Shown: positions 14,516-16,804 of the stretch, one piece after another
Layout of the letters: every line of letters begins with the position of its first letter
Numbering within the stretch: position 1 is the first letter of the stretch
Origin: a virus
Strand: one strand, 5' to 3'
Virus record (IMG/VR): IMGVR_UViG_3300013127_000033
Location: 1 to 23,124 of that record
DNA: 23,124 nucleotides
Position numbers and translations under genes: made by a program
Notes under the pieces: model-generated
Databases searched by the model: none
Told to the model about the DNA's origin: nothing
The model's input: the letters and a program-made list of their open reading frames with translations, nothing else

Positions 14516-15241
14516 ATGCCATTACCTACAATTGCGACTCCAACTTACGAACTTATTCTTCCCTCCAACGAAAAAAAAATTAAGTTCAGACCATTTTTAG
14601 TCAAAGAAGAAAAAATACTAATCATTGCTTTAGAATCAAAAGATGTTGGACAAATTACATCTGCAGTTAAACAAGTTATTTCGGATTGTATTTTAACAAA
14701 AGATATCAAAGTTCAGGAATTGCCAATCTTTGATATTGAATACCTGTTTTTAAATATTCGAGCAAAGGCAATCGGGGAATCAATTGACCTTATAATTACA
14801 TGTGGTGATGATGGTGTTACTCAAGTACCAGTAACTATCTACGTTGATGAGATTAAAGTTAATCGAGACGATGATCATACTAATAAGATTGAGATTCAAG
14901 ATGGATATACAATTCAACTTAAGTACCCATCTTTAGAACAGTTCATCAATAACAATTTTGATTTAACTACCAAATCATCAGAAAATCTAGAGAAATCTTC
15001 TAAACTCATTGCCATGTGTATAGACATGGTTTATAACAAGGATGACTGTTGGGTGGGGTCTGATTGTACTGAAAAAGAAATTATGACTTGGATTGATACT
15101 CTAAGTCCAAAGGATTATAAGAAGATTGAGAAATTCTTCAAGACAATGCCAAAATTAAGTCATGAACTTAAAGTAATTAATCCAGAAACAAAGGTTGAAA
15201 ATACTCTTGTTCTAGAGGGGTTATCTGATTTTTTCGCTTAG
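14516..15241 (+). CDS. 26: Baseplate hub subunit / hub assembly protein gp26
   Basis: A 241-residue member of the T4 gp26 family (Pfam T4_baseplate). Typical segments are the N-terminal YELILPSNEKKIKFRPFLVK then EEKILIIALES, and the middle FDIEYLFLNIRAKAIGESI. It ends with a helical region, including MTWIDTLSPKDYKKIEKFFK and its continuation to LEGLSDFFA. This family resembles tail assembly chaperones of other phages. The last codons GAT TTT TTC GCT TAG include a slippery heptamer exactly phased for -1 slippage, which would replace the last residue by a 59-residue extension carrying the gp51 domain. Confidence 0.9.
   Translation: MPLPTIATPTYELILPSNEKKIKFRPFLVKEEKILIIALESKDVGQITSAVKQVISDCILTKDIKVQELPIFDIEYLFLNIRAKAIGESIDLIITCGDDGVTQVPVTIYVDEIKVNRDDDHTNKIEIQDGYTIQLKYPSLEQFINNNFDLTTKSSENLEKSSKLIAMCIDMVYNKDDCWVGSDCTEKEIMTWIDTLSPKDYKKIEKFFKTMPKLSHELKVINPETKVENTLVLEGLSDFFA
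15229..15235 (+). other. Probable -1 ribosomal frameshift site T TTT TTC joining gp26 and gp51
   Basis: The gp26 zero frame reads GAT TTT TTC GCT TAG. The T of GAT plus TTT TTC gives the X XXY YYZ heptamer T TTT TTC in the correct phase, six bases before the stop. The -1 frame is closed by TGA at 15226-15228, just before the site, then open to 15412-15414. A downstream 7-bp hairpin with one G-T pair (15258-15264 with 15270-15276) is about 22 bases away, farther than usual, so a stimulator is not certain. Confidence 0.75.
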
Positions 15242-15414
15242 GCCTGGCAAAGGAGGATCTGGAGACATACTTCAGAATCAATTTTGCTTTGATGCAACAC
15301 CATAAATATTCTTTGACTGAAATAGAAAATATGATTCCTTGGGAAAGAGAAATCTATCTTGAACTTTTAAAACAGCACATAGAGGAATTAGAAGAGAAGA
15401 AACAAAATGGCTGA
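15229..15414 (+). CDS. 51: gp51-like hub assembly domain, probably made as a gp26-gp51 frameshift fusion
   Basis: The -1 frame downstream of gp26 encodes LETYFRINFALMQHHKYS then LTEIENMIPWEREIYLELLK. That is the gp51 (baseplate hub assembly catalyst) signature, in which E(I/L)xxMxPWEREIY is typical. In this frame no ATG precedes the conserved LETYF motif; the first is at 15292, inside it. A strong SD-like AAAGGAGGA at 15249-15257 has no suitable in-frame start after it and simply encodes Lys-Glu-Asp. The best explanation is -1 slippage at 15229-15235, giving a fusion of 240 + 59 residues. Independent translation from 15292 (40 residues) is the alternative. The 3' end overlaps the next gene by eight bases. 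Confidence 0.8.
   Translation, partial: FFRLGLAKEDLETYFRINFALMQHHKYSLTEIENMIPWEREIYLELLKQHIEELEEKKQNG
15301..15308 (+). promoter_or_regulatory. Possible late promoter box CATAAATA
   Basis: CATAAATA lies inside the gp51 frame, 98 bases before the next gene at 15407. The spacing is longer than for other late boxes and the bases encode His-His-Lys-Tyr, so it may be chance. Confidence 0.35.
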
Positions 15415-16804
15415 GGTTCAGCAGCAAGAAGAACAACAAGAAAAACCAAATGTCATTGACATTTCAAAATTTTTTGGTGGAAAGACTTTATTATCTGCTG
15501 ATATAAGAGTTAATAAAAATCAAACATTAAAAACTAAACCATCATTTATTGCTGCTCCTGAGTTAGCATCTTTACTTGATGTTGTTGCCACAAGTGTTGA
15601 AGATAAAAATAATACTATTGAGAGAATAAAATCTGTAGAAAGAATTCGTGAACGAGAAATTGTAGAAAGATCTACTTCGGATTCTATATTTCAAAGAGTC
15701 CTTAATGGATTAAGATTTGATGTTGATTCAATTTCAAAATCTTATACCAATTTAATTAAAAGTTTAGAAAGCGATAGAAAATTCAGAGAACAAGAGAAGC
15801 GTCTTGCTGAGGACTTACAAAAACAAAACGAAACTAGATTAAGTAAAGAAAGAGTTGGCGCATCTTTAGTAAAACCCACACAAACTATTGCTGGGGAAGA
15901 AGAGACAGCACAAGAACAACCGCAAGAGGGATTTGACATAAAGAAATTTCTTGGTGCCGCTGCTGGTGCTGCTGGTCTTGCTGGTCTTGGTATGTTTGGT
16001 GGTGATGAAGATGGTGGTGATCCTGGACAGGTAGATCCAAATTACAAACCACCATCAGGAAAAAAGTTTACTGTGGGGCAATTAAAAGAATTAGCATTAG
16101 GTGTTGGGTTTAATGAAAAAAATGCTTCAATTGCTGCTGCTGTTGCAATGGCTGAGTCTGGTGGAGATTCCTCTAATGATACTATAAAATCTGGGTTGTA
16201 TGCCAGAAATGGTGAAACCTCATATGGACTGTGGCAAATTAATATGACTGGTGCTTTAGGTCCAGAAAGAATAAAGCAATTGGGGTTATCATCATATAAA
16301 GATTTATATGATCCAGTAACAAATGCAAGGGCAGCATTTAAACTTTCGGGGGGATCTAATTGGTCTCCTTGGTCAGCTTACAACAATGGTAAACACTTAC
16401 CATTTTTAAAAGACGCACAGGCGCATAAAAAACCAGCAGCACCAGCAGCACCAGTTCTGCCACCACCAACCCAAACTTCAACTTCAACTGCAACGCCAGC
16501 ATCCTCAACTGTAGCAGCAGCACCACAAAAACCACAAACGCCACAACAAATAGCACAAGAAGAAAGTTCTATGAACCCTGCTGTTGCTTCTGCTGCAATA
16601 GACAAGATTAAAGTATCCGAAATAACTCCAACAGAAACTGGTTCTCAATCACCACCAATTATGATATCTCAGTCCCCACCACCAAGATCTTCTGGCGGAT
16701 CATACGATGATGGAGAAACTGTAGGTAGTGTACCAGGATTCTCATCAACAAATCCAGATAATTTGTATACGGCATATGCTTTAAAAGAATTAAACATAGT
16801 GTAA
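15407..16804 (+). CDS. Baseplate/tail protein with lytic transglycosylase (SLT-like) domain (465 aa)
   Basis: Modular virion protein likely to cut peptidoglycan during DNA entry. Residues 60-150 are a charged, coiled-coil-like helix. Residues about 180-200 are a Gly/Ala-rich hydrophobic segment (KKFLGAAAGAAGLAGLGMFG). Residues 221-330 are a lysozyme-fold domain: AVAMAESGG with probable catalytic Glu250, then SYGLWQIN (272-279), NARAAFKLS (306-314) and WSAYNNGKH (322-330). A long Pro/Ala/Gln/Thr linker follows, ending LYTAYALKELNIV. In T4 the lysozyme is part of gp5; here it is a separate gene between gp51 and gp27, the place of T4 gp28/gp29. It could therefore also contribute tape-measure-like functions, but the length is far too short for the usual gp29. 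Confidence 0.85.
   Translation: MAEVQQQEEQQEKPNVIDISKFFGGKTLLSADIRVNKNQTLKTKPSFIAAPELASLLDVVATSVEDKNNTIERIKSVERIREREIVERSTSDSIFQRVLNGLRFDVDSISKSYTNLIKSLESDRKFREQEKRLAEDLQKQNETRLSKERVGASLVKPTQTIAGEEETAQEQPQEGFDIKKFLGAAAGAAGLAGLGMFGGDEDGGDPGQVDPNYKPPSGKKFTVGQLKELALGVGFNEKNASIAAAVAMAESGGDSSNDTIKSGLYARNGETSYGLWQINMTGALGPERIKQLGLSSYKDLYDPVTNARAAFKLSGGSNWSPWSAYNNGKHLPFLKDAQAHKKPAAPAAPVLPPPTQTSTSTATPASSTVAAAPQKPQTPQQIAQEESSMNPAVASAAIDKIKVSEITPTETGSQSPPIMISQSPPPRSSGGSYDDGETVGSVPGFSSTNPDNLYTAYALKELNIV

Follow-up and report, generated by a model that had tools for sequence, protein, structure and literature searches.

We analyzed the end of gene 26 and the gp51-type sequence that follows it in a 23,124-base virus record from a cyanophage (IMGVR_UViG_3300013127_000033; this whole stretch of DNA is called the window), where a putative programmed -1 frameshift would join the 2 parts into a single tail assembly chaperone (TAC). 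The gp26 gene (14516–15241, plus strand; 241 aa, with the stop TAG at 15239–15241) occupies the zero frame, is the candidate TAC-N, and matches PF12322 (T4_baseplate, E = 4.7e-67) and phrog_150 (E = 3.6e-70). Its last codons read GAT (from 15227), TTT, TTC, GCT, and TAG and contain the slippery heptamer T TTT TTC (15229–15235, plus strand) in the phase X XXY YYZ, with TTT in the P-site and TTC in the A-site. The -1 frame is closed immediately upstream of the heptamer by a TGA (15226–15228, plus strand) and is then open from 15229 to a second TGA (15412–15414). It encodes a gp51-type domain (15229–15414, plus strand; the candidate TAC-C) of 59 residues after the shift and 3 predicted helices, which matches phrog_634 (E = 1.5e-27) as well as the C-terminal portion of phrog_150 (E = 4.5e-9) and was aligned to residues 200–244 of T4 gp51.

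The -1 frame of the window contains no ATG, GTG, or TTG ahead of an ATG at 15292, and the predicted gp26-gp51 fusion counts 240 + 59 residues. These elements had been pointed out in an initial annotation of the DNA, and its observation is correct: the in-phase heptamer, the bounds of the -1 frame, and the size of the fusion were all confirmed, every element being present. Two tryptic peptides are predicted to tell the products apart, VENTLVLEGLSDFFR from the shifted protein and VENTLVLEGLSDFFA from the C-terminus of unshifted gp26. The heptamer T TTT TTC occurs 20 times in the window against 20.3 copies expected. The idea that it is a rare sequence per se was therefore rejected, and its meaning has to come from its phase, its place, and its conservation.

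Conservation of the junction among relatives

Loci for comparison came from viral contigs and from records of phages, and profiles served to locate the gp26 and gp51 domains in them. Of the resulting 241 distinct junctions, 235 had a recognisable gp51-type domain, which lies in the -1 frame in every one of the 235. An in-phase U6 run is found in 234 of these 235 recognised junctions (UUUUUUC in 219, UUUUUUU in 14, and UUUUUUG in 1), and the zero-frame stop of the 234 mostly stands one codon past it. The junctions lacking U6 are L175 and L179, which are of T4 type with separate genes, and L174 and L178, which are of Ackermannviridae type. The single TTTTTTG (L207, 2196–2202) changes the second codon to Leu and leaves the frame relation intact.

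Codon choice around the heptamer is unusually constrained. The codon ahead of it ends in T in 234/234 junctions even though it encodes Ser, Asp, Asn, Ala, or Gly, with both serine codon boxes represented, and 41% of the Ser codons elsewhere in the gp26 gene do not end in T. Within the heptamer, the first Phe codon is TTT in 234/234 and the second is TTC in 219/234 (94%); at a control Phe-Phe pair, in the FFxTMP motif of the same gene, TTT TTC is found in just 6/201. After grouping at <70% identity, NNT TTT was present in 63/63 clusters, compared with 27 predicted from the codon usage of each phage. The chance of finding it in all 63 clusters would be about 10^-26.6, an overstated figure because residual relatedness is ignored. 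The initial annotation had proposed to align the junctions of related phages, and by this comparison the in-phase slippery heptamer is conserved beyond what codon usage predicts.

These data also bear on a decayed gene or a frameshift error, that is, gp26 and gp51 once forming a single frame from which a base was lost or to which one was added. A lone genome could look alike. A second viral contig (L011/L091, IMGVR_UViG_3300020603_000596), however, encodes proteins 100% identical to the gp26 and gp51 of the window, and the same frame relation stands at 235 junctions of very different phages, so that this explanation is already refuted by comparison and we give it practically no weight.

Candidate stimulators around the heptamer

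We also looked at the sequence upstream of the slippery site. In the window, a Shine-Dalgarno (SD)-like AGAGGGG (15214–15220, plus strand), whose GAGG stops 10 nt short of the heptamer, is a putative upstream stimulator with an anti-SD duplex energy of -7.5 kcal/mol, while the window's own gp26 start has no SD. Among the relatives, where GGAGG/GAGG is conserved at this spacing, an SD-like match ends 10 nt ahead of the heptamer in 168/234 junctions and 8 to 9 nt ahead in 54 more, giving 222/234 in total. The median anti-SD pairing of the element is -8.65 kcal/mol, compared with medians of -2.7 to +1.0 for stretches farther upstream. Its strength exceeds a synonymous-codon null in the 63 clusters (mean z -1.16, t -7.6), two thirds of which reach -6 kcal/mol or lower versus 8% of background stretches, and the Glu of the underlying LEG motif is encoded by GAG in 78% of cases versus 29% elsewhere. 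An SD-like element lying some 10 nt ahead of the heptamer is thus well supported by sequence comparison, and it may act as a stimulator of frameshifting. Most gp26 starts in these same phages lack a strong SD, and the junctions may represent a large natural collection in which frameshift signals are paired with an SD-like stimulator. The literature searches that we made found no description of such an element in these chaperone genes.

The initial annotation had stressed another sequence, AAAGGAGGA at 15249–15257, downstream of the heptamer. The relevant SD-like sequence is instead the upstream one at 15214–15220: AAAGGAGGA arises from Lys-Glu-Asp codons and is peculiar to the window, with Lys standing where His is usual (185/234). 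As it is not conserved in relatives, we rejected it as a stimulator or ribosome-binding site.

The element also helps to weigh the possibility that the fusion comes from transcriptional slippage on the T run and not from ribosomal frameshifting. A run of 6 T is present in every case and of 7 in a minority, as this would require; 6 T are nonetheless short for polymerase slippage, and 94% have C as the seventh base, where a T would make the run longer. Moreover, the X XXY YYZ phase is kept, and an SD-like element at a spacing of about 10 nt fits only a translating ribosome. We therefore consider transcriptional slippage very improbable.

For a programmed -1 frameshift, a structure is expected 5 to 9 nt past the slippery site. 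Downstream of the heptamer, an extended stem-loop is predicted in the window starting 10 nt past it (15246–15288, plus strand), with a minimum free energy of -16.7 kcal/mol and a z of -1.8 for 15236–15300, and it is a possible stimulator. Over the 63 clusters, the predicted structure just downstream is more stable than that of shuffled sequences (mean z -1.3 to -1.4). An unbiased scan gave one hairpin register, whose stem begins 12 nt past the start of the heptamer (i+j=54), as the top four and seven of the top eight candidates. At least 9 of its 12 pairs are kept in 40/154 sequences, compared with 0 to 8 in the neighbouring registers tested, and pair counts in 105 sequences lend it modest support (64.2% paired versus 62.3% when shuffled). 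A second hairpin is found in other lineages, and its pair-count support over shuffles is weaker than that of the first. The window has neither of these lineage hairpins, its own predicted stem-loop being different. Covariation is weak in both lineage hairpins, and taken together these results are suggestive of lineage-specific downstream hairpins.

The spacing between the SD-like sequence and the heptamer in Escherichia coli dnaX is 10 nt. The layout of dnaX comprises an upstream SD-like sequence, an X XXY YYZ heptamer, and a downstream hairpin (PMC3711429, PMC5600365), and the gp26 junction resembles this layout in its SD-like element, its heptamer, and possibly a hairpin. On the other hand, dnaX is an unrelated gene, its heptamer is A6G and not U6C, and its shifted frame leads to a shorter product.

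Start codons and the proposed long chaperone form

We asked how the gp51-type domain could otherwise be translated. One alternative is that gp51 is a separate short protein, made by initiation or termination-reinitiation near the gp26 stop. Public records of several phages do annotate it so, placing its start at the gp26 stop or farther on, and in 172/234 relatives an ATG is found among the first 14 codons of the -1 frame. The absence of a start codon before the gp51 domain, proposed by the initial annotation, consequently holds in the window and does not hold as a general rule. However, no ATG is found on either side of the junction in 61/234, and no ATG, GTG, or TTG on either side in 44/234, so that these 44 junctions and the window would have no start for a separate protein. 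The residue at the common ATG position is variously Met, Leu, Phe, or Ile, as would be expected of an internal residue. Taking an anti-SD energy of -6 kcal/mol or lower as a strong SD, none precedes the junction ATGs at codons 4 to 6 (0/151); a relative with a clear ATG and a ribosome-binding site before the LETYF motif had been named as evidence against frameshifting, and the ATG is there in many relatives while a strong SD is not. Only 15% of the gp26 starts have a strong SD at this threshold, and as SD use is generally weak in these phages, a missing SD alone does not exclude initiation. A separate gp51 would also leave unexplained both the invariance of the heptamer and the 2-domain chain of T4 gp51, and we regard it as improbable. 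In the public records of L003, L004, L006, and L007, the gp51 start is placed past the heptamer and within the conserved domain, which is probably an annotation artefact. The gp51 starts of public records are probably wrong.

The T4 proteins indicate what the joined product would be. Both T4 gp26 (5.2e-63) and T4 gp51 (3.9e-52) match PF12322, so by sequence genes 26 and 51 of T4 are paralogues of one family, a relation that is visible with the Pfam model and that gave no alignment in a one-sequence profile comparison of T4 gp51 with gp26. T4 gp51 runs past the same junction point into the TAC-C domain and is a natural in-frame fusion of both parts, which indicates that the joined gp26-gp51 protein is the long form. 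A sequence search of solved structures with the gp26 and gp51 profiles returned nothing useful. We then considered the AlphaFold2 model of gp26 (predicted local distance difference test score 87), which was compared with the solved chains ranked highest by Foldseek. The top three matches, all tail-chaperone folds, were 3fgx (Z 7.9), the HK97 protein 2ob9 (Z 7.9), and YqbN 3klu (Z 7.2), followed by 5ir0, a protein of a phage-inducible chromosomal island (Z 4.9), and then by a match at 2.9. We take 3fgx and 3klu to be tail chaperones (their entry titles read uncharacterised and yqbn, respectively). The predicted fold of gp26 is suggestive of a chaperone fold of the HK97 gp13 kind, at Z values slightly below the level at which a match is clear in itself.

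Considering these results, we find it very likely that gp26 is a TAC-N and that gp26-gp51 is the corresponding TAC-NC, made by -1 frameshifting. The initial annotation had read the junction as a programmed -1 frameshift, which both the junction comparison and the paralogy and fusion of the T4 genes support, and the 2 proteins as a T4-type chaperone pair. Here, the chaperone part agrees with the comparison, with the T4 proteins, and with the predicted fold, while "T4-type" has to be used cautiously since T4 has no frameshift at this place.

Several points weigh against this interpretation. The case for frameshifting comes from sequence comparison, and the match to the chaperone fold spans only residues 1–95, with Z just under 8 and Foldseek E-values near 1. 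In 139/234 relatives, codon 5 of the -1 frame is an ATG, and some of these phages could also initiate or reinitiate there. In addition, the stem-loop of the window is weakly supported at other window lengths (z -0.6 to -0.9), and the family-wide RNAalifold consensus fold is empty, so that downstream structure is lineage-specific at best. A universal downstream hairpin was rejected on this basis. Modelling of the region after the heptamer, which had been suggested at the outset, therefore speaks modestly for the lineage hairpins, against a universal one, and gives z values from -0.6 to -1.8 for the stem-loop of the window.

If frameshifting takes place, a minority of the ribosomes reaching the gp26 end would meet U UUU UUC, where both Phe-tRNAs would slip back by one base onto UUU UUU; continued translation in the -1 frame would yield the 299-residue gp26-gp51 fusion (TAC-NC). 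Most ribosomes would terminate one codon later at UAG and release gp26. The internal AGAGGGG about 10 nt upstream, and perhaps the downstream stem-loop, would probably raise slippage as in E. coli dnaX. By comparison with lambda gpG/gpGT, the short and long forms together would then cover the tape measure protein and bring in tail tube subunits. A TAC is expected to bind the tape measure protein and to be missing from the finished virion. The slippery sequence of lambda differs from the gp26 heptamer. The 2 systems are likened by their arrangement, a chaperone domain followed by a C-terminal domain, which belongs to the conserved frameshift of tail genes in dsDNA phages (Xu, Hendrix & Duda 2004), and they differ in that gp26 is about 240 aa long with extra domains.

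In their 2022 work, Vladimirov, Gautam, and Davidson are said to have found frameshifting retained in several T4-like groups, with T4 using genes 26 and 51 separately. According to passages of papers that cite this work (PMC10885494, PMC12846349), T4-like TACs were identified there (Vladimirov et al. 2022, Virology 566:9-15); such passages also mention separate TAC genes in some T4-like phages (PMC10885494) and poly-T slippery sites in T4-like TAC-N genes (PMC12846349). The junction described here resembles those TACs, as far as the citing passages describe them, in the gene pair 26/51, the TAC-N/TAC-NC reading, and the poly-T slippery site, so the core of the arrangement is already published in substance for T4-like phages. 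T4 itself differs, as its short and long forms are 2 separate genes. The passages citing the T4-like TAC work do not mention the SD-like element or lineage-specific hairpins, and these putative stimulators are probably an undescribed detail. Sullivan et al. (2010, PMC3037559) noted that some 200 N-terminal residues are absent from cyanophage gp51, a remark that would be explained if gp26 represents the missing part.

Distant relatives and neighbouring genes

In Ackermannviridae-type phages (L330 at 1690–1890, L331, L332, L333–L350, L351, L352, L354, L356, L174, and L178), the TAC-C frame is still -1 and the canonical heptamer is replaced by a T7-like N NTT TTY. The site sequences are A/G ATT TTC, A/G CTT TTY, G GTT TTC, C GTT TTT, and G GCT TTC, at which only the A-site Phe would fully re-pair; G GUU UUC is the site type of T7 gene 10. 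Loss of the heptamer with retention of the gp51 frame, which had been listed as evidence against frameshifting, was seen only in these distant phages, together with the T7-like site. Several of them show a TAATG stop/start overlap, which agrees with a separately initiated gp51. In Kuttervirus PS5, the gp51-type domain is unannotated, and no start codon precedes its conserved part. Scans with single proteins of Vibrio phages for Ackermannviridae-type relatives found none or one.

On balance, these comparisons make it moderately probable that the tail chaperone genes of cyanophages hold a complete recoding cassette of the dnaX kind, in which an internal SD-like site, stronger than the sites where translation of these genes begins, would drive the -1 shift, downstream hairpins would have been replaced by others from lineage to lineage, and the heptamer would give way to T7-like N NUU UUY in Ackermannviridae-type relatives with the frame kept.

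The gene following the junction (15407–16804, plus strand) encodes 465 aa with an SLT/lysozyme-like domain and shares its first 8 nt, ATG included, with the end of the -1 frame. A T4-like TAC would be expected to lie immediately ahead of the tape measure gene. Profile scans gave no match of its product to a tape-measure family, and phrog_1283, the family of T4 gp29, was not found among the scanned window proteins. The length of this gene is highly variable across relatives, and its product may be the tape measure protein. The gene content of the window is T4-like, with gp32, a helicase loader, a gp48-type tube cap, gp2/gp4, and tail genes, and its nearest annotated relatives are Kyanoviridae cyanophages at about 60% identity or less.
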